Positions 2,365 through 29,114 of a stretch of DNA of 64,000 nt are shown here, piece after piece. How positions within the stretch are numbered: the stretch's first letter is position 1; the number at the start of each line of letters is the position of its first letter. A model generated the notes under the pieces. It was given only the letters and a program-made list of their open reading frames with translations, was not told the origin of the DNA and made no database searches. A program made the position numbers and the translations under genes. Origin of the DNA: Phytophthora sp. 'mugwort' (Eukaryota > Oomycota > Peronosporomycetes > Peronosporales > Peronosporaceae); assembly GCA_033558025.1 (NCBI GenBank), contig JAUCEF010000005.1, positions 7,626,001 through 7,690,000 on the forward strand, given 5' to 3'.

Positions 2365-3731
2365 AGCGTGGGGCTACTCTTAGGTGACTTAAGTGTGTTG
2401 CTTGCTATGTTATGACTGATGGCTGCTTGCTTCGGATTAAGCAAACACGGTCCGTTCACATTGATCTCATGTTGGGTTTGTCTTGCGCAGTTGGGTTTGC
2501 TTTTCTCTTGGCTTCGTGCTGTTATTGTTGCGCTGTACACCACCACACGGGAAGCTCTTGTTCAGTACACGTAGATCTCCCGCCTCAGGTACCATCCTTT
2601 CCTTATACGTATGCAGAGGGGGAATCGACAAGCCTTCTTGCAAGTGAAACTGTGGGTGAAGGTGACGTGATATGGTAACCCATTGCGAGGTCGATCGTAT
2701 GCGACTCGCGTATTCCACATCGGTTCGATCGCAACCTTGCTACCTACTTCTTGTGCTGTGCAGATGAGCGAGCTGAGGCTTTCGATCTGTCGATAGCCAA
2801 TGATCCAGTTGGATACACTTCGAGTTATGACTCTGTTCTTCTTTGTCTTGGCGCGAACAACACCGCTTGGAATTAGAGAAGGATCCCTCGTTGAGTCGCT
2901 CTCGGTCTCGTCCGCGCAGATCTTTCAATTGCTTGCAACGTGCGACTAGCTTCCACCAACGGCTGTCACCTTCCAGCTTTTGACGGTCGCGCTTCAGTGA
3001 TCGTTAACGGTCCTTCCTCGCTACCTCAGACGGACAGCAAGCGCCGTCAAGTGCTTCCAGCTCGCACCAACCTTGTCCGGCTTTGGCTGTCACATCATCG
3101 CATGGACCTCCAGCCAAGACGAGACGAGCTCACCTCCAGCCATTCCTCGCCAACATGGGGTGGGTGCTGTGTCCCTGCTCTCTCGACATCTCGAGCGTGA
3201 TTTTAGCAACTCCGACCCACGGCAACGAAAGCGAACAAGCCCCTCGACGCCCCTATGAATGCCTCATGCTCACTGGTCAACAGTGGAGGATAAAGGTGCC
3301 ACTTTGCCGACCAACCGACGTCATGGCGGTCTCGACAGGTGTCTGTGTGTCTTCACTGTGAAGTCTCTTCACTGGACATGCAGCCACGTACGAGGCGCCC
3401 GTTTGTGGCCTGTATGAGCGTGGAATCGACGCGCACGTGCGCTGCAAAGCTGGGGCCGAGCGTCGCGTTGAAACTCGCCACATCGGGCAAGCCTCGCTCT
3501 GGTCGACACTTCCTCCGCGTTGCTCCGTGCACAGCCTGGACCGCCAGACGCGGCGGTCCCCGTCGGCACCGAGCAGAGCGCATCCATTCGAGAGCAGCCA
3601 CGCACACACTTCATCATCTCTCTTCGCATTTTCCCGCTCGCCGTCGGGCAGTCCGAAGGCTGCTTGGTGTCCGTCGCCGCCAAGCTTCTAGCACAGCTGG
3701 TGCACCAACCCACCGGGTGGTTGACAGAGCA
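2365..3731. other. Intergenic stretch, no gene seen
   Basis: About 1.37 kb between the CDGSH gene and the first START-FYVE gene. Short frames are present on both strands, but none shows a recognisable motif, splice-consistent extension or biased composition. From 3339 the frame is open into the downstream gene, so a longer N-terminus of that gene is possible. Confidence 0.6.
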
Positions 3732-6344
3732 ATGGAGATCCAGCAACGCAAGCGGGTGGCCATCACGTCGTCCTTCTTCCCCGTAGACGAGAGTCTGTTA
3801 CCCCAATTAAACATCTCGCTGGCGCAGCACGAGGAGCTCCGTCGATATGCACTTGAAGCGGCTCTGGACACGGTTCGCGACGGACCGACGTGGGGACGTT
3901 CCAACATTGAACACGCCGTGTCCAGTGGCTGGAAGGTGCTCTCAGCACGACCAACCGCTTGCTTCATGACCAAACGAGAGATTAAAAAGAAGAAGAAGAG
4001 AAAAGGAAGCAAACGGGCGACACAAGAGCAGCCAAGTGAAACACAAGAAGAAGACGACAAACGGACAGCTCCACCGACTCCACGCGTCACGATCCCGGGC
4101 GTCACGAGTCTTGGCAGCTTCCACGGCACTGCCATTATTCGAAGTCAAATGGGCTTCCAACCGTTCGCTCCCGTGCCTCTGGAAGCCACAAGTGGACAGC
4201 ATTTTATGGCTCATGCAGTGCTGCCCAACTCACTAGAGGACGTCATGAACACCCTGTATTGTGAACATACACGCGAGATGCGAGCACTGAAGCGGAAAGT
4301 ATACGGCGAGACGGCCTTGGACTGCTGCGTCTTGCAGACTCTTGAAGGGGCGACGCTGGAGGATCCGTTCTGGTACATTGGACTCAAGTGGCTGGCACTG
4401 CGGTCTCCAATGCAGGCGCTGATGGCCAGTCGCGAGTTTGTCTACCTCGAACATCTCGGAACGCACGTGGATCCGGACACTGGCCGTCGGATGCTGTATC
4501 GAGTGACTCAATCGGTGCACATTCGAGGTTATGGCGGCCAAGACTCGTACTTTGGTCTCACACGGGGCCATATTGAAGCTGCTTTTGTGTACTGGATGGA
4601 CGATGAAAATGAAGTGAGGAACCCGTTGCTGCACGTGTGCGCCAAGGGAAGAATGCACCTTAAGGGCAACATGCCAGACAGTCTCATGTATAGATATCTC
4701 AAGTCGTTCTGGCGTTCCGAGCGTTCGCTCTTCCCTGCGAACAGATCTTCGGGCTCCTCGATTGGTATCACGATTAATGACGACAATGACAGTGAACCAC
4801 CACCGAGGAAAGCGTTAAAGAAGAAGAAGAAGAAGAAATTGAGACGTCGTAAGGTTCCAAGCGGTCCACCACTTGAAATGGCGCACGAATGGGTCGCTGA
4901 TGAACGCCGTCCACGTTGTGCCGTATGCAACAAGAAGTTCCGTCTCGTGCGACGCTTTAAACATCATTGCCGCGCCTGTGGCGAAGTGATTTGCAGGGAA
5001 TGCACGTTCCAGCATCGCGTTAATGTTCGCGCTACTCAGAGTTTCCGTGGCTTACGAGGAACTGTAGCAGCATCTGTGGACCTGATCGCAGACACGAAGG
5101 CAGTCAAGAAGGAGTCTACACCTACAGACTTGGACGAGACGATGACGTTAAGCTTTGACAATCAAGTGGTGGAGGAGGAGAGCAATACTGGCGAGTTTGA
5201 CGCGAGTCTGAGCTTGGTGAACGCTCGGAAGGCAGTCAATGGTCCACTTGAGACAGCCGTCCTTGGTGGCGACTCGGTGGTATGTGTAGTGATGGCCAAG
5301 GTTTGTCTGCGTTGTCTACACAGCGTCCCATTGGTGAACAGGTCAAAGAGCAAGTCAACACAACGACGAAGACACAGCGAGATGGCACTCAGCGGAGAGT
5401 TCCCTGTAGTCATCACTGAGGGCGACGGAGACATTGAGTTGGAGACGGAGTACCCGCTACGTCCACAAACCTGGACACCAGACGACAGAGAAATCGAAGA
5501 GCTTGACGGTCTTGCTGATGAACTTGGTCTAACTACTGGAGGTGAACAAGACCTGCCGATGCTGGTAGTACACGACGACGATGCTGAGAGTGTTGATGGT
5601 CTTGCAGAGGTGAAGAGAAGACCGGGCTCATCAATGTATGTTCGACCTGGTTCGTACGCCCAGGAGTGGAATGGATACGAAGACGGCGCACTGGATAGTC
5701 ATGCCAATCATGAGCGCGTGATGATCCTCTCGCCACATGCATTATCGACGTCGTCTTCTGTCACGTCGGCACAGATGAAAGAGTTCATGGAAAAGGATGA
5801 AAGCAGCTACGATAGCAGCGGGCATTCGGAACATTATCCGAGCCAGTCGAGCGTTATCTTGAACGATATTGACCAGGATGACAACAAGTCGATTGAGTTC
5901 TACCCGACGCTGACCAACCGCGTTGCAGATGACGAGTCCAAGCTCCCGGCACAAGACAGTCAAGGACGTATGAGCAGCTCTGCTGCTGGTTTTGACCCGA
6001 CCAGCCTTTTCGAGCTTAAGGATGACGGGAATGAACTCGCTGCTAGTGCTGCAGCAGCCACGGCCGCCGTGAGTGCGACGGAGCGAGTGTTGCGCCGGAT
6101 GCGCGACCTACAGGATGAAGCTCTGTACCAAACCCGACAAGTCCCGTCACCGTCGTCGTCCACGACTTCGTTGTACAGTGAAGACGCGTGCAGTGTGCCC
6201 GACGAGTCCATGCAAGACCTTCGTCAAGCACTCGCACAGGTCGAGAGTTCGCTAGCAGATCAAGCTCGTCTTCTCTTCACTATGGAACAGGAACGCAAAC
6301 ACGAGTCTGGAGCAGCATCTACAGCTACGTCCGAGGCCTTGTAG
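3732..6344 (+). CDS. START-like and FYVE zinc finger protein (copy 1)
   Basis: An uninterrupted frame encodes 870 residues from the chosen ATG at 3732 (it is open upstream to 3339). It belongs to the large oomycete group that joins a START-like lipid-binding region with a FYVE finger, which typically binds phosphatidylinositol 3-phosphate on endosomes. The START-like region spans about residues 35-335. FYVE begins near Trp387 (EWVADERRPRCAVC), with the basic patch KHHCRACG and then CRECTF. The last Cys pair (KVCLRC, about residue 523) is separated from this by roughly 90 acidic and Ser/Thr-rich residues, so the finger is split by an insert. Two Lys/Arg-rich runs (near residues 80 and 360) resemble nuclear localisation signals. 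A short coiled coil lies at the extreme C-terminus. It is convergent with its paralog, with stops 113 bp apart. Confidence 0.85.
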   Translation: MEIQQRKRVAITSSFFPVDESLLPQLNISLAQHEELRRYALEAALDTVRDGPTWGRSNIEHAVSSGWKVLSARPTACFMTKREIKKKKKRKGSKRATQEQPSETQEEDDKRTAPPTPRVTIPGVTSLGSFHGTAIIRSQMGFQPFAPVPLEATSGQHFMAHAVLPNSLEDVMNTLYCEHTREMRALKRKVYGETALDCCVLQTLEGATLEDPFWYIGLKWLALRSPMQALMASREFVYLEHLGTHVDPDTGRRMLYRVTQSVHIRGYGGQDSYFGLTRGHIEAAFVYWMDDENEVRNPLLHVCAKGRMHLKGNMPDSLMYRYLKSFWRSERSLFPANRSSGSSIGITINDDNDSEPPPRKALKKKKKKKLRRRKVPSGPPLEMAHEWVADERRPRCAVCNKKFRLVRRFKHHCRACGEVICRECTFQHRVNVRATQSFRGLRGTVAASVDLIADTKAVKKESTPTDLDETMTLSFDNQVVEEESNTGEFDASLSLVNARKAVNGPLETAVLGGDSVVCVVMAKVCLRCLHSVPLVNRSKSKSTQRRRHSEMALSGEFPVVITEGDGDIELETEYPLRPQTWTPDDREIEELDGLADELGLTTGGEQDLPMLVVHDDDAESVDGLAEVKRRPGSSMYVRPGSYAQEWNGYEDGALDSHANHERVMILSPHALSTSSSVTSAQMKEFMEKDESSYDSSGHSEHYPSQSSVILNDIDQDDNKSIEFYPTLTNRVADDESKLPAQDSQGRMSSSAAGFDPTSLFELKDDGNELAASAAAATAAVSATERVLRRMRDLQDEALYQTRQVPSPSSSTTSLYSEDACSVPDESMQDLRQALAQVESSLADQARLLFTMEQERKHESGAASTATSEAL

Positions 6345-6457: not shown

Positions 6458-8968
6458 CTAAGAAGAGCGCATGGAGAGCGGGGTGAAGAGCGTGTCGGCT
6501 CTTGGAGTCGGCGCAGTTTGAGTCGAACCGGGGCAAAGCAGAGAAGACCGCGCCTCGGACGACACTTCACCGGCCGTCGTGGCTGCTGTCGTCTTGGCGA
6601 CCGTGTCATCTTCCGGAGACCGATTCAACTTACTGCGTTGTTCCGCAATGGACCGGATCAGCGCTTCTTGCTGTGCGATCGATCGCTCGACTTGCTCCAG
6701 TTGGTCTGGAATCGACAGTGTTCGAAGCTTTGAACTGTTCTCGGACTGGCGAGCAGCAGTGGACGGCCGACGGGGCACCGAAGGAGGGATCGCGTCGCTC
6801 TGGTTAGTCGAGCTTAATACCCGTCCACGACTGCTAAGCCGGGCCGTGTCTTGCTCGTCGTCTCGCTTGGGCGTCGGTAGCAAGAAATCGTCGAAATTGA
6901 ACGTGCTATCACCTCCGTGAAAGAGGTGGCTTGGCCTCGCAGGTGGAGACTCGTCTCCGTTATTCAGGTCGTCTTCATCATAGAGTAGAATACTGCGTCG
7001 TAGATTCTTCTTCTTCTCACGGGCCATGTGCATCTGCCTCATGCGTTCTACACGAGCTGAGTATTGTTCATCCGTCTCATGGATATCGTCTTCTTCCTCG
7101 TCCCGTCCCTGAGCGTTGTTCAATAACTCGTCGTCCGCGGCATATCGGCCACCAGGGAAGAAGCCGCGCATCGGACCAGGACGTAACCCGACGGTATCAG
7201 CCAAGGAACCCTGCAGAACCAGAGGAAACTGCTTGATCATGGTGGGCGCCGCGTAAAAGTTGGTGGCTCCTCTCATGGTTCCTTTGCGTTCCTGACGGAT
7301 ATTAAACATGCATTTCTTGCACAGTTTGACGTTGTTGACGGCCGGGTATCCGTTCGGACGCGTCTCCTCCAGACTCTTTTTGGCTGGCTGCTTTAGCAAT
7401 ACACTCATTGGTCGGCCTTCCAGTTGCTGAGCAGGTCGATGAGACCGACGAATTCCGTCTCCAGTTGTGCCCTGAATATCGTCCTCATCTCCACCAGGAC
7501 ATGGTGCTGAAGACGGCGGCGCAACAAGCGGCAGTGTGATCATACAGCGAGAACACATGACCTCACCGCACATACGACAGTGATGACGATGACGTCGTAC
7601 GATCCCGAAACTCTTGAAGCATACGAAGCACACCTTCCGCTGGTGGTCTGGTACCCAACTTGGCTGCGGATTAATTGACATGCGTCCCATTTCCGGCGTT
7701 CGCGTCATTTCAAACGACTGGAAGCCGTGATGTGAGGACGAAAAGGGCATTGCAGCAGGCCCATGTGCTGTCACTTCAGAGCCGCTCATGGTGCTTTGAC
7801 TCTTATCAAGACTTTGACCAGATTGGGAACGACTTAATGCGACCGGAGGGTGCGGGAAGACCATGCCGTGCTTCATGATGTACTTGATATCGGCGCAGTA
7901 TTCGATACGTACGACGGTCGGCGCGAATTGCGAAAGAAAGGCACTTCCCAGCCACGTCCCGGCACGACCGCCCGGGTCCAATGAGCCTTCTGCAAAGACT
8001 TTAACGGCGTCAGTCGCCTCGTCAAATTTGTACATTGAGATCATTGAGATGTGACCACGGACAAAGCGCAGCTTTAACGGTTCCACACTGTCGCTTGACT
8101 CAACGAGTTGAGGTAGTGGAGGCAGTACATCGTCTCCCACAGACTGCATGACCTTGACGAGCACTTTATGACCTTCTTCAGTCGTCACAGTCTTGGCGTA
8201 CTCGTAATAGGCGTGATCTCTTGGCGAAAAGAACTTCCCACTAGGAGACGCAAATGCCATCCATTTGATACCGAAAAAGCGGAACGGATCGTCCTCTGTC
8301 TGTGTCTCGAGTACTTGAAGCACTGCAGCGTCCAAGAAATAGTCCCGGTATAAGTAGGCACTAATGGAGCGTTCGTCCAGCGTCGTGTCACTGTATTTGC
8401 CGTACTCGACGTCCTGCAACGTAAGCCCCGGGATGCGTCCTGAGGCTACAAACTCATGTGCGTTACCGCGGTGTAAGTCCTTCCGCTTGTAGACTGCGAG
8501 ATGGGGCTTAGCACTGTGGAGTTTCCACTGCTTGGGGTCGTCGAAGATCTGCTTGGTACCGTCCCACGCCGCCTTAGACTTGAGCAAGCAGCTGGCGATG
8601 AGTCCTTCAGCTTGCTCACACATTGCAGTCTGCTGTGTGTCCGTGATCTCGACGCGTGGGATCACTTCGTCCATACGTGGCAGCTTAGCGACCTGCTTGT
8701 GCTTGGAGCGGCCAGGTAGCTTGAGTTTACGTCGCATGGTCGGCCGTGGCCGGCACGGCGACGACACGTGGCCGGGATTCCAAGGAGACGCTGTGCGCTT
8801 GGATGGTCGTTGAATCTGTGACCGAGAGAGCGGCCCATCAGAGAGATTCGAGTGCTCACTCTCTGCCAGGACGGGCTCGGACGCCCGATAATCGAGTAGG
8901 ACCCTGCCACTACTGCGATCCATGACACTGCTGCTGTTTAAAGTGCCAATGCTCACTCGTTTCTCCAT
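6458..8968 (-). CDS. START-like and FYVE zinc finger protein (copy 2)
   Basis: Single exon, 836 residues from the ATG at 8968 (MEKRVSIG); an in-frame ATG at 9025 would add 19 residues. Architecture matches the convergent neighbour: a START-like region at about residues 100-380 (shared pieces include a DAAVLQ.LE...DPF...GIKWMA block and a RGHI motif), then FYVE from Trp438 (SWVPDHQRKVCFVC), basic patch RHRHHCRMCG, and a final Cys pair KLCKKC after an insert of roughly 75 residues. Such proteins are expected to act on endosomal phosphoinositides or lipids. An acidic stretch follows, then a short Gln/Glu coiled coil (LEQVERSIAQQEALIRSI). The two copies are clearly paralogs but strongly diverged outside the domains. 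Confidence 0.85.
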   Translation of the reverse strand: MEKRVSIGTLNSSSVMDRSSGRVLLDYRASEPVLAESEHSNLSDGPLSRSQIQRPSKRTASPWNPGHVSSPCRPRPTMRRKLKLPGRSKHKQVAKLPRMDEVIPRVEITDTQQTAMCEQAEGLIASCLLKSKAAWDGTKQIFDDPKQWKLHSAKPHLAVYKRKDLHRGNAHEFVASGRIPGLTLQDVEYGKYSDTTLDERSISAYLYRDYFLDAAVLQVLETQTEDDPFRFFGIKWMAFASPSGKFFSPRDHAYYEYAKTVTTEEGHKVLVKVMQSVGDDVLPPLPQLVESSDSVEPLKLRFVRGHISMISMYKFDEATDAVKVFAEGSLDPGGRAGTWLGSAFLSQFAPTVVRIEYCADIKYIMKHGMVFPHPPVALSRSQSGQSLDKSQSTMSGSEVTAHGPAAMPFSSSHHGFQSFEMTRTPEMGRMSINPQPSWVPDHQRKVCFVCFKSFGIVRRHRHHCRMCGEVMCSRCMITLPLVAPPSSAPCPGGDEDDIQGTTGDGIRRSHRPAQQLEGRPMSVLLKQPAKKSLEETRPNGYPAVNNVKLCKKCMFNIRQERKGTMRGATNFYAAPTMIKQFPLVLQGSLADTVGLRPGPMRGFFPGGRYAADDELLNNAQGRDEEEDDIHETDEQYSARVERMRQMHMAREKKKNLRRSILLYDEDDLNNGDESPPARPSHLFHGGDSTFNFDDFLLPTPKRDDEQDTARLSSRGRVLSSTNQSDAIPPSVPRRPSTAARQSENSSKLRTLSIPDQLEQVERSIAQQEALIRSIAEQRSKLNRSPEDDTVAKTTAATTAGEVSSEARSSLLCPGSTQTAPTPRADTLFTPLSMRSS

Positions 8969-9917
8969 AGAGCAACGTACTCTCTCTCTTCTCTTGGACG
9001 CTGACAACTGGTGTGTGCAGACCACGCGTCGAGTACTTCAAGCCCGCTTGTGACACAGTGTGGACTCGGCTGTGGCAAATAAACGTGGTGCAATGAGACT
9101 ATAATGTATTTATTTGATATATTTTGAAGCCGTACCGATCGGAGACTTTGTTCCACGCTGCGTCGATTGCGAAGTGTGACGATAGACCTGGGGGGGACCG
9201 ACGATCGATGTCGCGACGCGGTGAACGACAAAAAGATGGCCTACTCTCAACGTCCGGCTCGCACAGTCCTTTTTGCAGAGACCCAAAAAAGGTAAGTATT
9301 CAGTTCATGACTTAAGGGTTTGTATGGGACCAAATTTTACTACTTGTAGCTGCTCGAAAGTGCCCAGTTTGTTTTGACAGTGTGCCGATCGTCAGCGCGC
9401 ACCGTGCGCGAAGGCTTCCTCGACTGTCAGCTATAGTGGGCGGAACTTGCCGCTACACAGAAGAAGGCGTTCAGTGCGGCAATTGCAGCTGCAGAGCAGA
9501 CCGGGCGTACCTTTGTGTGGCCCAAGCCTCGACGTGGACGTTAGCTCCAGTTCGAGGCAGCAGCGAGACGGTCTCACTGCTGGATTCCACAGTACTAACT
9601 ACATACATGAACCTCGGTGCAACGTTGCTCTTAGTCCAGTTTCTTATGTTACAGTATGGATGAAGTCTCACATGGCATCTCTGCTGGTGCTTATCTGTAA
9701 GACACGAAAAGCAACGGGAGGTTGTGAGCGAGCTGACGAACCTGGCTATCCAACGCCCTGTCAGCGAAATCCAAGGACCCTTTTGACAAGATTTTGACGT
9801 TAAAACGCTAAAACGTCAATCGGACTTAGGTATAGTGATGTACCCCACCATGTATACATAAGTGCCATGTCACTATTGAGTGACATGATTCTTTCAGTGC
9901 TCAATTAGATCAGCTCG
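8969..9917. other. Intergenic stretch, shared divergent upstream region
   Basis: About 950 bp between the start of START-FYVE copy 2 (minus) and the LCMT gene (plus). No coding frame with support was found. It should contain the upstream regions of both genes. No oomycete initiator of good quality was seen. Confidence 0.6.
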
Positions 9918-13116: not shown

Positions 13117-16100
13117 ATGGCCGATGCGCCGGAAGAGGAGGCGGCGGAGTTCGCGTCCAGCGCGCAACCCCCTGCAGCCGACAGTGCGCCTCCGCGCACC
13201 ATCTTGTACCCGCGGAAGGGTGTAGACTTGGTGCAGAGCCGCGTGGGACGTCGCGCGTTGGCTGTGCCCAACTGGTTCGATCTGCCGCTGCTGCTCTCCG
13301 AGTCGCACCCCGTGGCCGCGCGTATCCAGCGCAATGTGGCAAGTCGTGCACCACGAGATAGTGTAGTGAAGAGTAGAGACGACGGCGGATACAGCGTAAC
13401 GCCCAAAGTGTCGCGACTCGGCTCGAGGGAGGAAGAAGAAGCGTGCAAAGCGAAAAAGATGGAGGCGGTAGTGCGCAAGAGCGTCATAAGACGGCGACAG
13501 AGCTCGAGAGTGAGGAAACTCGAAGGTTTGGACCACCGAGACAGGAAGAACTGGCTGAGACAGAAGCTTTGGAAGGATATGAACAGGTTTGGACTCTGGC
13601 CGATGACAGGACCTCGGGACGGCGACGACCAGCAGTCAGTGGAGAACACGGTGGACTCCATTTGGACCCAGTGGCAGGACAATACACAGAGAGAGTCGTC
13701 GTGTGACGCGACTAAAGGCAGCAGTAATGAACGCGAGGGTGACAGTGAAGACGGCGTTATTGCGGACGTGGAAGATGACGCGAGTGCGGTCTTTTTGACG
13801 GGCGTCCCGTCGGTCTCGAGCTTAGCGTCGACATTTACGACGGCAGCGACGGATCCAGAGACGTCATCAAGTCGGAGACGATCGTCAGTTGTTAAGGATA
13901 TCAGTATGGGGATTGATACACCTGAAGACGAAGACACTAGCGACCAAGACGAAGGATTCTCATCAAGTTTTGGTGTTTCTGCAGCTGATCAACTACAAGC
14001 CACAGTTCCGACTCCAGGCTTGAAGCGACGTAAACGATTGACAGATTTACATCACTTTGTGAGCACTCAACTGCAGAAACGACTGCTTAAGTCGTGGGAG
14101 ACGATTGAAATTGCGTTTTCAGGCAGTGGCGACATGACGGTCTCTCAGATTGTCAAATTTCTGCAGCATTCAGACGTCGAGTTAGGCGAGAGAGATGCAG
14201 TGAAGGTCCAGAAGATACTTGAAGGTCATATGACGGCAATGCAAGCAGCACAAGGAGCAAGTGAAGAGGAGAATCACAGTAACCAAAGACGGACGAAACG
14301 CAAAGCAGTATTTTCATATGAAGGATTTCGTCAAATTTTTCAGCCTCGTGACCCTCAAGAAGCTTCGAGATGGAAACGTGAGTTCGATCGAGAGAAATTC
14401 CGTCAGAGACAGGAACAAGACATTTATTCCAAGGAACTAGCGGTACTGGAAGAGAAAGGTACGAACAAGTCTCGTAAAGTGTGTTAACATTTATTTACGA
14501 TTGAATTTGTTGTGTCTGTAACAGTTCGACAGCGCCTAGCAACCTCAGCCAAGCACATGATTGACATTCTGCAGCAGTTTCAGTGCGATCCCAGTGCGAT
14601 CCCGTGGACGAGCGAGTATCAACGATTGCAGCTCCGATCCCAATTTTTAGAGATAATATTCCGTAAACCACAGCGCAGACGGATCCCGCCACTTGATAAC
14701 AGTCTGCCGCATGCAGACGGAAGCGAAGCTATAGGAGCACATTGTATTCCGGATCAACTCAGTATCAAGCTCATCTTGTCGACACTTCTTCAAAAGTATT
14801 CTCGAAATGGTCATTTCGAGAGTCTTGAGGTTCCAGTAGCGGCGTATTTGTATCACGATTTCGCAGTGGACATTATCAAGCAAAGTATCCGGCGGTACTG
14901 TGCGAGATTGCAAGTCGATCAATGGCCTGAGCGTCAAGTGATTTTTCGCTTTCGCAAGAAGAAACAAGTCTTTAATGACTGGCGCATCGTTGCTGAGCGT
15001 GCGAGGATGTTACGTAAATACGTTTTACGCAAGTTTATTGCGTGGAAGTATCTGACTCGCAAGCTGCATGAACATTACGCCTTCTACCGTACAAGTTTCT
15101 GGCCATTTTACATTTGGAAGCGCCATCTCCAGCAAATGATCATCGCTCGTGGAAAGACCATTTTTCTGAGGAATGTGTTGCGTACATATCTTCAACTCCG
15201 ACACTTTCGTGCATTAAAGCAGCGATACGAGAGAAAACAATGGAATATCAAGCAGATTGCACGTGTGCGAGAGAAAAAGACACGACAAATGTGCTTTATT
15301 TGTTGGGAAATTTGGGAAACTCGCGTTCAACGCTCACGCTTGGTACGGCAGATCTGGAGAACCCACGGACAAATGCTTCAGCGACTCCACAAGTTTTATA
15401 TGGTGCGAGTGACGTTTTCTATCCTGCGTTACTATTCGATTCTGAAAAAGGACATGAAACGGAGGAAGTTCAAGAGCTTTTTGAGTCAATTTTCGGTGGG
15501 AGCGAGAGCTAAAGCTGTAGCACAACACCAACGCCAGCATCGTGGAGTGAATATTCCTAGTCGGAGTGTTCAACAGCGCTATCCATCTGACAATAATACG
15601 TCATTAACCCGTCGTAGTCTGCCAGTATCGCCATATGAAGTACCGCAGTTTGAGAGAAGAAACACACGAGGCTCCATTCGAGGGAGTGCGTTGCTGCCAG
15701 CGGATGAGGAACCCAAAGAAGCTTCTCGACGCACTTCGCGTCACGAAGATCCTTACGTGGAATCTGATGATGGAACTGTTGCAACTTCTTTGAGGAGGAT
15801 TATGGAGACCGAGCTAGGGAAGAAGATGAAGCGCAAAAGTCGGCTCTACGATATGTGTCTCAGTTTGTATCTCAAGTACCGCGAACGGGATCGTATCAAT
15901 ATGATCGGGAATGTGATTATTTATCGACGTCTTGGACGTATTTTCATTAAATATTTGCAGACAAAGGTACATCAAGCCAAGATCCATCGCTTTGCGACCG
16001 ATCTGGGCGCGTTTCGAGTACTGAGCTCTCGTTTCCGTCAGTGGATGATTGGCACAGTATACAAAGTTCCCCTATCTGTACAAGACGAAGTGGAGACTGT

Positions 16101-18429
16101 GAGGAGGGATAATATCGAGGAGGAGAATGGAGAGGGGAAAGTGGTTCTGCACTGGCGTCAAGATCGAGATTGGCGTCTTCAAGGGATTGTCAATAGTCCG
16201 ATTCAAGCACAGCAGCTTCGTCACGATCTTCTCTCGATTATGGAGAATGATTCGGTGCGCAAGGAGACGATACGAGGCCGTGAGCTATTGCTGAACCAAA
16301 AACAAGTGAATGAAGATGTCTTTCTGCGTAAAGAAACCGGCGTAACGTTGAAAATAAAGGCAGTTCAGATGCAGCAAGTCCAGCAGATTCTACGACGACG
16401 AGCTCACCGTCTTCATGATGCAATGGATAATGTTTACGACGTCTTGTTGCAGCAACAAGCACAGCAGCAATTGAAGTCGAGCTTTCGTAGTCTTCGTATC
16501 GTCGTGATGATCAAGTACACGAGTCTGCTTTGTCATCGTGCACAGTTCCGTAACTGGCTTCGTCTTTGCCACCGCTTTCTGTATTGGGAACGACATATGA
16601 GCGACTTTTACAAGCTCAAACTCAAGTTTCGTGCTTTCCAGACTTTACTTAAGCATGTGGTTTGGAAGTGGAAGTTCCAGTCGTCAGGGTTATCGCAAAA
16701 GCTGCATGGTTCACAGCAGCTTTTGTGGAAATACGAGCACTTTATGCAAGAACAAGGGATGTTTGATGGTACTTTGGACGCTTTACAACTCGCAGCAACA
16801 AAGTTGTCGCCTGCGAACTCGTTTCGAGGTATTTTTCTGCGCTGGGTGCAATTTACACAGTGTTCAAGAGCACGAAAAGCGGTTGTTCGACTGGTACGTC
16901 GGAAACAAGAGGTTTGGACGATGTACACAGTGTTTTATGCTCTTAAAACGCGAGTCAAGACCAAGTACACGTACGCAGATCGTTGTGTACGTCTGCCGTA
17001 CTTATGGAGACAGAGTATGGTTGACTTGGATTCGTATCATTGCAAGATCATTGCGCTCGAGCAGCGATTACCCACGACACGTTTAAAAGCAGAGCTGCTT
17101 CATTCTCGCAAGTTAAGGCAGGAAACAGCGATCAACTCCCCGACATTGAAGAAACTCTTCCAAGACCATGAAAAGGAAGTCCGTCTTCGGTTGCAATTGG
17201 AGAAACGGTTAATGCTCGTGGCATACAACGATCGAGCAGTGCACAAGTATATCGAGCGCTCGTCCAGTCTGTTTGGTACCACAGCAGGAAGACCGTTCAT
17301 ACACGATAAAGTACCTCCGTTTGGTAGTATCAGTGAAGTCGCTGTTATTTGTGGTAAGAAAGTGGACGGGATCTCTGTCGTGATCAAGGCAAACGGACAC
17401 GTGAGCACTGAGAGTTCTCTTCATGGCAATCCGTTCGGAACTCGCGAGGTTTTTTCACTACTGAGAGGTGAGAAGCTTGTTAGTGTCGAGGGATTCGCTT
17501 CTCAATCCATCTATGGACTGCGATTTGGTACGAGTGCTGGGCGATATTCCAAGTGGTTTGGGCACTGTGAGAAAGGCTCGCGATTTGAGGTTCACAGCGA
17601 TTATTGCAACACTCGTGAGGAGATTATAGGGTTCTTTGGTCATGCTGACAGCGCTTCGATCAATTCATTGGGGGTTGTGATGCGATACACGACCGTGAAA
17701 AACCCATTTGAGGGGCTTTGGATGCAAAAGGATCATCATGTACAGCAAAAAATGCTGCAGCAGTCTCAAAATCGAAGTTTTGGAGACGATTTGCCTCTAT
17801 GTGACCGACAATTTGCATATTTTCTTCAAGTTCGAGCATGTGAAGTGTTGCTGGTGATGGAGAGAGCGCATTTGTTTGCTATCCGAGCGTACAAGATGGA
17901 AGAGATGCTGCCGTCTGGTGTCGGAAATATTCGGACCATTATGGCGATTACTCGGTGGATGCTCAACGCGTTCTCGCATGGGTTAGTACAACGTACGGAT
18001 CGGGAGGAGGAAGGAAAAATGATTTTACTAAGCGGTCAAGAGAAATATGCAACCGGAAACAAGTTGGTTGCTGACGGGGTTAATACGATGCAGATTGTCG
18101 ACGGGTTTCGTGATTCGGTGGGGCAATTGGACGCAGCGACACTGGGGATTAAAAAGATTGTGGAGTTGCGAGAGATGGTGACCGAGGCTCAGCAGCAAAT
18201 AGCACAAGGAGAACGACTAAAGGAGGAAGGACAGCTCGAGATCATGCAAAGCCAGCGAATTCTACCTCATCTCCCAAGTACCAAGCGAATGATCTCAGCT
18301 ATCCGTAAGATGCACAAGGTCGTGCAAACTAAGGACGAGATCGACCAGATGACGCCGGAAGTACGCTCTATCCTGTTACTCAAGAAGAATGGGGGATTTA
18401 CTATTGAAGGACCATTGGCTTTGCAGTGA
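13117..18429 (+). CDS. Very large Sfi1-like helical repeat protein with a jacalin-like domain
   Basis: Two exons, 13117-14458 and 14525-18429, join in phase (intron 66 bp) to give about 1748 residues. The first exon is low complexity and acidic, with an EF-hand-like helix pair near residues 320-372 (SGSGDMTVSQIVKFL). Roughly residues 550-1340 are a long basic helical region with recurring aromatic motifs (WRIVAERARMLRKY, FIAWKYLTRK, FWPFYIWKRHLQQM, FRNWLRLCHRFLYW), which resemble the centrin-binding repeats of Sfi1 and related centrosome or basal-body proteins. Residues about 1381-1503 have the pattern of a jacalin-like beta-prism: GSISEVAVICG, IYGLRFGTSAG, a FGHCEKGSRFEV strand and EEIIGFFGHADSASINSLGV. 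A coiled coil closes the protein. I do not recognise a named family. An in-frame ATG at 13045 is an alternative start. Confidence 0.75.
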
Positions 18430-25296: not shown

Positions 25297-28200
25297 TCAT
25301 TGCTCTGGCTTCTTGTCTGCGCTGCTGGAAATCTCACGGTTTAAGGGGACGTCACGTGCGACTGGAGCAGTGAGGACTCCTTTGCGCTGGTACTGCTCCA
25401 CGAAGCTGATGAGATCGGGATACAGACTTGTCTTCTCCGTCACTTCCGCTGGCGGAACCGTAGAATACGATCCATTTTCCAAGTGGTGTATCAAATTGTG
25501 GCGGAACTTTGGCGTCCCAGTCAGCTCATCCAGCGCCGCCACAAATGATGCGCAGTACGTTCGTTGTCGAGACGTGTAGCGGATCAGAAAACTACCCACT
25601 CGATGCGGTTGGCGGCGTGCCAAAAGCTCTTGTGCTTTCTCACGTGAGATGTCACCGTGGAAAAAGCTCTGCAAGCCTTCAGCACGAACGTGGAGAAGTC
25701 GCCGCGCTAGCTGGAATTTCTCATCTGCTGCAAACGCAGCTACGAGTTGCATGCACCCATCTCCAGTAGCTTGCTACAGCATTTGAACAAGCCACCAACA
25801 GCGTTAGTACGTCGATGTTGAACGCTTAAAACACTACCCAAAAGAAGGCACATTGCCTACCATTAAGTGATTGCAGGCGTTCCGCACAATATAAATCTTC
25901 GCCTTAAGTTTGTCGTCTCCCGTAGCTTCTAGTTCATAACTGCAGATAAACATACAAAACCCAGTTAGCAAACAGAATTAACAACATATTTTGGTACAAA
26001 TGTATCGTACTTGAGGTTGACGAACTCGAAAGCATTGCTGCGTGTGAGCAGTTGGTACTCCCGTGCCGCCCAACGACCTAGATGCTCATGACCGGACGCG
26101 ACGTCGACAAAGAAGACGCCAGAGCTGCTACTGTCCTGGACCCAATCAAGCACGGACGAGTGAAATGGTCGCAATAGCTGCGTTTCTGGGTCATTTCCAG
26201 CTTCAATCGCAAAAAGAGATCCCAAAAAAGTGCCTGCATCCCGCTGCTCATAAACGTCCCATTCCAATACATGGGCAAGAGTGGCGACGGGAAGTGGTTC
26301 GTACGCAGCACAACATACCTCCAGCACAGGACGTACACGTTGCTTGTACATGTCGTAATCGGAGAAATGACTCGCGAAAAACTGCTGCAGATAAGCTCCC
26401 ATTCCCACCGGTAACTCTGTCAATTCGTCGAGATGTAAACGACCCTCGCGTATTGCCTGGACAACGTTGACTGCATACAGGAAGAGTCCTTCGGAGCGGC
26501 GAGCGATCAGCTCGACGACTTGCTTTATGCCAAACTCCTGACTGCTGTTTGAATCCGTGCCAACGTTTAGTACTGAAGCTTTTTCAAAATCAACGTCGCT
26601 CAAGTGCAGCTTTGAGAGGGACTGGTGGACATATCGACGGATATCTTGGTCGTTTTCATGCTGAAATTGTTCAATTGTCACATCAGGAGGTTGAAAAGCA
26701 TGCAGTTTCGAGAGCACGGCTGGGTCTTCTCGACTGAGCAAGACGAAACGCACCCATTCTGGCAAGCGTGACATGAGCGCTGGCAACATCAATACAAGGC
26801 ATTCATCGTCCTTGTTTTCTCTCCACGAGCCTCCACTTAAACTTGGTATCGACAATGACGAAGATGAAGCAGGAATCAACCACTCGACGCCATCAACCAG
26901 TAAAACCAGTGACTTATACTTCGCTGGCCGTGCAATCGCATTGAGCGGGTCTATCAGCAGGTACGTCACGAGTTCAACGAAAGAAGCCACGGGGACCATC
27001 TCTTCCAATGGTTCATGAGACTGCAAATAGTGCGCGTACTCTGGTAACTGGGTCGTAAGTTGATACGCGAGCGAGAGCACACATCGTCTAGTGTTGTGTG
27101 TCTGCTCGTCTTCTTGTCGAGCGAAGTGGAATGCAGCAATTTCAGGACACGACTGTACCATGCACGCTGCCACGGACGTTTTCCCCGAGCCAATTTGGCC
27201 TACCACCCAAAACACGCGCTGGTTGTTGAGCTCACGCGTTGATGATGATGACACACAAGCCGAGGAGCCTTGAAGCCACCGCTGGAAGTGCTCGAAAAGC
27301 CATTCTCTCCCCATGAAGCGCTCTGTTAGCTGGCTGACTTGTCGTTGGAAGTTAAATGGAGCCAATAACGAGAACAATCTTGCCTGTTGGCCCTCGTGGT
27401 CCAGAGTGCCTTCCAATGCCGATATGAGCTGGTCCTTGCGACTCTCATATCTGACGCAATTCAAGCTTGCCCTCGTGCCATTGACAAAACCATCACTATT
27501 ATAGATAAGACAGTCCGTCATATCGAGCCACTGGATACGACAAATGGAGAGTGGTATTTCACACGTACGCACAAAAAGAGGCACAAACCCCAGACCTGCA
27601 CTCATCGCTGCTGACACATCATTCAGACTGACACCATGCGGACGACCCACGCTCTCTGCTGTCAGCAAGAGGATTAACTTGCCGTCTTTCTCGGCGGATG
27701 CCCACTGGAGAGCATCTTCGCGAGACGTATACGCGCTATTTGAACTGTCTTCAACTTGTGTAGTAGCTACAATGTCACCTGGGGTTGACACTGGGAAAAC
27801 GGAAAATCCCGCTACTGTCAGATCGTGGCAAATCGCTTGGGCGAGTACATAGCAGCTTTCGTCATAGCTTAGCACATAACGCGTTTTGCGACACGATACT
27901 GCATTACTTTGTTCCACTTCAATGACAGCTGACGGCACTTCCGTAGTATCTTGACCAGGTACGAACGGAGAAGCTAAAGGAGAACTTCGAGCCAATTTTG
28001 CTGCTTCATCGACCTGCATTGGAGAACATGAAGCGGTGAGAGTCCGATTAGCCAACGTTGCGTCTTTGCTTAGCTTTTCCGCCGGTATGTCTAGAATGGC
28101 GGACCGTCCGCGCGTTGGAGAGCCAGATAATAAGCGTCGTACGCTACTACTCCGCGGTGTATCCAAGTGAGCTCCATCAAAGCCAGGAAAAAGGCTCAAA

Positions 28201-29114
28201 TTGGCCAGCCCAGCAACAGCAGGTACACCGTAGCTTGTGATGGAATCGAACTACAATAAACAAAGTCAGTCCTAAGTCCTTAAGTCAATTCAAGTCAGTA
28301 TCGTACCAGTTCCAGTATCGTATACAATCGCTCTGCCTTGTCCAAGAAAATCGCCGTCTCCAAGCAGCTCTTCATGAGATCTCGCCACTCCTGACTATCC
28401 TTTGCGTGCGTCTGTTGCTCTACATCTCGTGGCACGCAGTCGCGCATATCAAAGAACGGGAGCATGGCAATACTTGGCGGGGGTGCACTCTCTGCTACCA
28501 TGACTGGGAAGATATTGAGCCTCAGCGACGCAGCTCGCGCGACTTCATTGAGACAGTAGCCGTCAGGCCGTCGCAGGGCATGAGGCGTCATGACAAGCAG
28601 CACTCGGCCGTCTGAACCAGCATCCCTGGCCCAGGACAAACCCCCCGCAATGCCATCTTCCCAGTCAATACCCGCCGAGAGCCTCTCAATATCCAGCCAC
28701 ACTACGTGCCCTCGTCGTTGCACTAACAGCAGTTTTAGAGTCTAAATTGCTGTATCTTACTAATTGATACTAGCATTTCGTACATGCTGCCTTCAAATGG
28801 AAGGCTAGAGCTTGGAACCTGTCGTGACCGTCTGATACGAATATATGACGACAAATAACAGGATAAATTTGAGTTCGTTTGAGTCTCTAGAACCTGCTAC
28901 AATACAGGAAATGTATGTTGTAGCAAATATGTCGGCGATCTTTTACTGCTTGACGCGCTCTGTCGACGTCAAGAATGCGCTTACACGAGAGAAAAACCTT
29001 TAGACGAGCGCTTGGAGTGTATTGAAGGGTGCGGGAAGCGGCAGTCGCGAGCGGATAGCCGCTGTGGTCTCCTACATCGCCGTCAAGCCGAGTCGGCGCG
29101 CCGCCACCGTGCAT
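25297..29114 (-). CDS. Tandem TIR - NACHT ATPase - SH2 protein (NLR-like)
   Basis: Six exons join in phase on the minus strand: 29114-28947, 28886-28784, 28722-28307, 28250-26011, 25939-25861 and 25773-25297, giving 1160 residues; introns are 56-87 bp. TIR-like domain 1 (about 70-190): HIFVSDGHDRFQALAFHL, RGHVVWLDIERLSAGIDW, RVLLVMTPHAL, and GYCLNE with a Glu at 150 where TIR NADases have their catalytic residue. TIR-like domain 2 (about 353-480) is homologous, but the matching position is Asp440. NACHT/STAND region (about 540-990): FMGREWLF, Walker A VGQIGSGKTS (580-588), Walker B LVLLVDGVEW, RFVLLSRED, and a helical end YIVRNACNHL. SH2 (about 1040-1131): FFHGDISREKAQELL, GSFLIRY with the phosphotyrosine-binding Arg at 1067, and HHLENGSY. 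The expected role is an intracellular signalling or immune-like switch that senses phosphotyrosine; this is inference. The first exon is the least certain. Confidence 0.8.

Follow-up and report, generated by a model that had tools for sequence, protein, structure and literature searches.

A 64,000-nucleotide stretch of contig JAUCEF010000005.1 from Phytophthora sp. 'mugwort' (C5:7626001-7690000 in an 86.26 Mb assembly of 154 contigs) was analyzed for a gene on its minus strand at 29114-25297. This whole stretch is called the window, and positions are counted within it unless another locus is named. The gene was modeled as six exons encoding a 1129-residue protein in one frame, with splice sites taken from the sequence and from the TIR pattern. 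The introns measure 153, 61, 56, 71 and 87 nt, all GT..AG, and the splice junctions match in separately annotated orthologs. In order, the predicted protein (the window protein) carries a TIR domain (TIR1), a degenerate second TIR domain (TIR2), a STAND NTPase of the NPHP3_N type, a TANC1-type winged helix and a C-terminal SH2 domain. Exons and domains were placed as follows.

28985..29114, minus strand: exon 1, start codon, N-terminal tail and first TIR strand; the tail lies at the zinc-ribbon position of relatives, the ribbon being gone here
28784..28831, minus strand: exon 2, YGHDRF and first helix of TIR1; identical junction in P0010 and P0017
28307..28722, minus strand: exon 3, remainder of TIR1, up to residue 198
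26011..28250, minus strand: exon 4, variable linker, TIR2, STAND NTPase and winged helix
25861..25939, minus strand: exon 5, helices preceding SH2, IYIVRNACNHLM
25297..25773, minus strand: exon 6, SH2 domain, C-terminal tail and stop
28439..28997, minus strand: TIR1, residues 40-154, exons 1-3; catalytic-position Glu119 at 28544-28546
27507..27893, minus strand: TIR2 (degenerate), residues about 318-446
26886..27305, minus strand: STAND P-loop NTPase, NPHP3_N match, residues 514-653; Walker A at 27174-27200
26019..26342, minus strand: TANC1-type winged helix, residues 835-942
25372..25677, minus strand: SH2, residues about 1004-1105; FLIR Arg1036 at 25579-25581

The window protein was matched by Pfam to NPHP3_N at 4.4e-12 and to SH2 at 9e-7, and no repeat family (LRR, WD40, TPR or ankyrin) was found behind the NTPase among the six Pfam families at E <= 1. 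TIR2 was missed by Pfam and detected with a profile built from prokaryotic relatives; structure comparison agrees. The top PDB sequence match of TIR1 was SARM1, with Glu119 aligned to a Glu in a SARM1 helix, and the exon-6 (SH2) model reached a predicted local distance difference test score (pLDDT) of 78.7 and matched Src at 4.1e-7. An earlier note on this DNA had described a single gene with two TIR domains, a NACHT/STAND ATPase and an SH2 domain. The single gene and its domain order were borne out, as was a STAND-type switch between an effector-type TIR and an apparently competent SH2. TIR2 is probably without catalytic activity, and the ATPase, confirmed as STAND, was refined to the NPHP3_N/TANC type common to prokaryotic TIR-STAND proteins.

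Homologs were collected by a search that scored the 7990 candidates sharing most words, and further eukaryotic members were possibly missed. All four Pfam domains were present in 25 of the 67 homologs; those of the 25 that bear names (42-83% identity) come from Phytophthora, Pythium, Globisporangium, Saprolegnia, Aphanomyces, Achlya and Thraustotheca. Among named proteins, Phytophthora supplies the closest (72-83% identity). The domain order, whose absence from related genomes had been set beforehand as a possible refutation, thus recurs in seven oomycete genera. Seven rows without SH2 (P0019, P0020, P0024, P0025, P0035, P0037 and P0038) stop at residue 945-947 of the window protein, the position of intron 4, and look like unspliced frames. 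Ten others (P0022, P0036, P0039-P0044, P0046 and P0047) end between residues 654 and 963; two of these are labeled 'partial' at source, and P0046 and P0047, both from Aphanomyces astaci, are annotated short proteins. Such truncated homologs do not establish genes lacking SH2. Exons 1, 2 and 5 are short, as might be expected had adjacent genes been wrongly fused in the gene model. This artefact was rejected as exceedingly improbable because the domain order is conserved, and the unspliced metagenome frames ending where intron 4 sits also speak against it. Loss of the gene in obligate biotrophs was considered. Many other oomycetes are represented among the 67 homologs, and no downy mildew or Albugo name was visible there; the names are shortened, some rows are nameless and no control gene was searched. 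H. arabidopsidis reportedly has no tyrosine kinases (PMC3019232, PMC10925823).

Residue conservation was counted in an alignment of 26 full-length rows with the window protein. The Walker A Lys, Walker B Asp, LSRE Arg and winged-helix His are each present in 26/26 rows, and in the SH2 pocket the FLIR Arg and alphaA Arg are kept in 26/26 and the betaD His in 25/26. The catalytic position of TIR2 holds Asp in 23 rows and Glu in 3. At Glu119 of TIR1, 25 rows have Glu and one has a gap. Residues needed for STAND, TIR and SH2 functions are conserved except for the terminal Walker B Glu, to which we return below. Within Phytophthora (10 rows), identity to the window protein was 94% for TIR1, 93% for SH2 and 49% for the linker; in the other groups it was 76, 66 and 60% for TIR1, 65, 56 and 56% for the NTPase, and 58, 54 and 57% for SH2, so that between groups SH2 is lower than TIR1 and close to the NTPase. 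The protein might alternatively be a scaffold recruited by phosphotyrosine, its SH2 docking on a phosphorylated complex and its TIR and STAND parts forming a platform that cleaves no nicotinamide adenine dinucleotide (NAD+). Tandem TIRs with one degenerate member would suit such a scaffold, and metazoan TIR adaptors work in this way; against it, TIR1 is the best conserved part, and the catalytic-position Glu is kept in every row that reaches it. We regard the scaffold as doubtful.

The C-terminal tail is 17-39% identical in Saprolegniales. This weak conservation tells against an inverse, Src-like logic, in which SH2 would hold a phosphotyrosine of its own chain to keep the protein closed and dephosphorylation would open it. 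The SH2 does adjoin the switch at the C-terminus and its fold is Src-like, and three classical tyrosine phosphatases are given for Phytophthora sojae and Phytophthora infestans in the part of the source available (PMC10925823); we nevertheless judge this arrangement improbable.

Copy number was assessed by profile search of the genome. Two SH2 loci exceeded the cut-off in an exon-by-exon search and two NPHP3_N loci were found, one of them the TIR-STAND-SH2 gene; with these locus counts as lower bounds, the gene looks single-copy. The second NPHP3_N locus (L026, 2277-4541, minus strand) is a 755-residue frame with neither TIR nor SH2 match. By eye, seven further TIR loci (L003-L012 and L014, on contigs C1, C5, C7 and C11) encode ankyrin-TIR proteins with hydrophobic N-terminal segments and one or two TIRs (most two), the first TIR mostly having Glu in WCLKELALAK-like motifs.

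These counts bear on a role in immunity, which the earlier note had implied. An immune receptor could use SH2 as a pathogen-directed decoy, in the manner of the integrated domains of plant nucleotide-binding leucine-rich repeat receptors (NLRs). TIR-STAND logic is indeed common to plant NLRs and bacterial defense proteins, and in a scan with PADLOC Avs profiles (E <= 0.001) the relative P0053 matched the Avs1b profile at 7.4e-6; the ortholog P0002 matched only the TIR parts of the SAVED_TIR and Aga models. The genome, however, holds the small number of NPHP3_N and SH2 loci given above, and the 93% identity of SH2 within Phytophthora gives no sign of rapid sensor evolution, so the decoy is quite improbable. 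The case for immunity is weakened by the single-copy appearance and by the place of SH2 among the best-kept parts within Phytophthora. Because of the apparent single copy and the conserved SH2, the evidence favors a conserved switch in development or danger sensing that answers an endogenous signal, over a diversifying immune receptor.

Outside oomycetes, the closest relatives comprise 18 metagenome proteins (P0049-P0066; E 1.2e-88 to 8.0e-63, 27-34% identity) together with 40 bacterial and archaeal loci of many phyla. The 40 loci were found by patterns including GYCLNE and the linker, and the presence of the Glu motif in 58/58 relatives is thus partly by construction. Shared with the oomycete proteins are a TIR with GYCLNE, the linker SI.RIQWLD, the NTPase and a winged helix with PFH.S; the prokaryotic TIR-NPHP3_N-HTH_TANC1 proteins differ in having a single TIR in the rows examined and, in many, TPR or WD40 tails. 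After exclusion of seven of the 40 loci (short or cut frames), Pfam found NPHP3_N in 33, TIR_2 in 32, HTH_TANC1 in 22, TPR_12 in 18 and WD40 in 10 of 33 prokaryotic loci, among the 25 commonest of 123 families. Six metagenome proteins were scanned, of which two have a TPR tail, one (P0053) RyR and three no recognized tail. An SH2 profile made from oomycete rows scored above 1.0 bit in 0/58 relatives, compared with 48-190 in 32 oomycete rows; the lack of an SH2 match carries little weight for 12 of the 40 loci, whose frames are short or truncated by the end of the locus.

The motif SICRIQWLD before the NTPase stands behind the prokaryotic TIR and behind the oomycete TIR2. For this reason TIR1 looks like an extra copy that was kept intact while TIR2 decayed. 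In 22/50 prokaryotic rows whose TIR start was recognized, and also in four Saprolegniales rows, the TIR is preceded by a zinc ribbon (C..C, then C..C/H); one C..C remains in four Pythiales rows and none in the window protein. This pattern supports descent from a prokaryotic-type protein, and the oomycete protein seems to derive from a prokaryote-type TIR-STAND protein that acquired an additional TIR, and an SH2 where its sensor stood. In a core tree of 78 rows (from 108 core matches, after removal of 8 on grounds of length and exclusion of 22 others that all belong to P0001-P0048), 23 oomycete rows form one clade (100, starred; stem 0.94) outside every phylum; the tree is unrooted, made by a quick method, and has several long branches. 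An origin in one bacterial phylum is not supported, the oomycete clade being nested in no phylum. Saprolegniales fall into a pair of starred clades; S. diclina, A. astaci and A. hypogyna each contribute a row to both types, although the Achlya row P0031 was not part of the tree.

Possible phosphotyrosine partners in the same genome comprise the following loci.

L028 1569-3545, plus strand, and L029 2023-6000, minus strand: tyrosine-kinase genes, HRDIAARN and HRDLAARN
L027 (G000:C6:1060500-1068500), 4373-2319, minus strand: second SH2 gene, an SH2 exon, then YxxF motifs and TPRs

The kinases were identified by their HRD[IL]AARN tyrosine-kinase loop, which occurs at two loci (reversed control pattern, 0), and both have strong PK_Tyr_Ser-Thr matches. 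By eye, their N-termini also share a region that is not part of the kinase domain, SAF.P..V...F...VWA.L..QR..M. Behind the second SH2 exon lies a 501-residue frame with TPRs and eight Y[AGS][SNA]F motifs (8 observed versus a mean of 0.04 and a maximum of 1 in 2000 shuffles, the motif having been picked after viewing the sequence); the intron joining exon and frame was reasoned and not built. This gene looks like a multivalent phosphotyrosine scaffold. SH2 domains usually prefer a hydrophobic residue at +3, and because they fit this preference the YxxF motifs are a candidate ligand for the SH2 of the TIR-STAND-SH2 protein. The P. infestans kinome study lists, in its available part, a pair of tyrosine kinases and four plausible proteins with SH2 (PMC3019232), against the two SH2 loci counted here.

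STAND proteins oligomerize upon activation, many TIR domains cleave NAD+ once brought together, and SH2 domains bind phosphotyrosine. We put the probability that the window protein is a phosphotyrosine-gated switch with NAD+ cleavage by TIR1 as its output at roughly one half. As proposed, the protein would be cytosolic and held closed at rest by its ATPase and winged helix. A tyrosine-phosphorylated partner, possibly multi-site, would bind the C-terminal SH2, which occupies the place of the TPR or WD40 sensors of many prokaryotic relatives; nucleotide exchange would then open the switch and protomers would assemble. The N-terminal TIR1 domains would meet, become active and most likely cleave NAD+, leading to arrested growth, cell death or production of a second messenger, and TIR2 would probably be a spacer or assembly surface. 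Phosphotyrosine binding, switch behavior, NAD+ cleavage and cell role are all putative. In a minimal circuit, the two tyrosine kinases would write, the YxxF scaffold would gather and the TIR-STAND-SH2 protein would read, and through clustering on the scaffold TIR1 would consume NAD+ within a resistosome-like ring; as a whole this circuit is rather doubtful and is offered tentatively.

Several observations weigh against a phosphotyrosine-gated switch. The window protein lacks the terminal Walker B Glu found in its prokaryotic relatives, and its ATP hydrolysis may therefore be weak. The whole-protein model is modest (mean pLDDT 69.3, predicted template modeling score 0.43), and the whole-protein TM-scores from Foldseek are low (0.09-0.43; first match RPP1). 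In the VIA structure comparison, ORC/Cdc6 AAA+ proteins reach scores equal to those of STAND proteins; a row not listed there is no proof of absence. SH2 is also a small reader, unlike the long repeat scaffold that usually locks STAND proteins, and could serve for placement only.

Elsewhere in the window, a divergently transcribed kinase gene on the plus strand (29497 to ~31000) starts ~0.4 kb from the start of the TIR-STAND-SH2 gene, and a promoter region common to both is possible; by eye, a hydrophobic segment lies ahead of its kinase domain. A 1313-residue frame with one jacalin-like lectin domain lies at 14488-18429 (plus), and two FYVE zinc-finger frames at 3294-6344 (plus) and 6458-9037 (minus) face each other.

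Plant TIR-NLRs (RPP1, WRR4A) likewise combine a TIR effector with a STAND switch, with an NB-ARC NTPase and an LRR sensor. SARM1 has the Glu in the equivalent TIR helix, together with SAM and ARM domains and no STAND NTPase. Animal TANC1/2 and NPHP3 have the NTPase and winged-helix Pfam families in common with the window protein and carry ankyrin or TPR tails; we know of no comparable TIR-SH2 pairing among them. Src-family SH2 domains share the fold, the FLVR Arg, the alphaA Arg and the betaD His, and unlike them the SH2 described here has no attached kinase. The nearest precedent found for SH2 as a variable C-terminus is in Amphimedon sponge Death-TRADD-N proteins of the NCOA6 clade, where SH2 is likewise an exchangeable C-terminal part of apoptosis/immunity-type proteins; the constant unit there is Death-like domains plus TRADD-N, and no TIR or STAND NTPase is named in the available part of the paper (PMC8195603). 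The database names visible for the homologs are mostly 'hypothetical' or 'SH2 domain-containing protein', others being 'Ankyrin repeat domain-containing protein 50', 'TIR domain-containing protein' and 'Nephrocystin 3-like'. No description of the TIR-STAND-SH2 architecture was found in the literature searched, which leaves most subscription journals outside.

STAND switches with TIR effectors guard cells in bacteria, plants and animals, and ATP-driven switches of this sort are common among bacteria. The TIR-STAND switch described here has an SH2 in the sensor position and is conserved across oomycetes: the sensor slot is held by a domain that reads a covalent mark on proteins, which places two signaling worlds in one chain and amounts to a prokaryotic-type switch re-aimed through sensor exchange. 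The importance of the oomycete phosphotyrosine system is left open in the available part of the P. infestans kinome study (PMC3019232). If true, the proposed reading would give this very small system a function, and with so few parts the proposed circuit would be directly testable.
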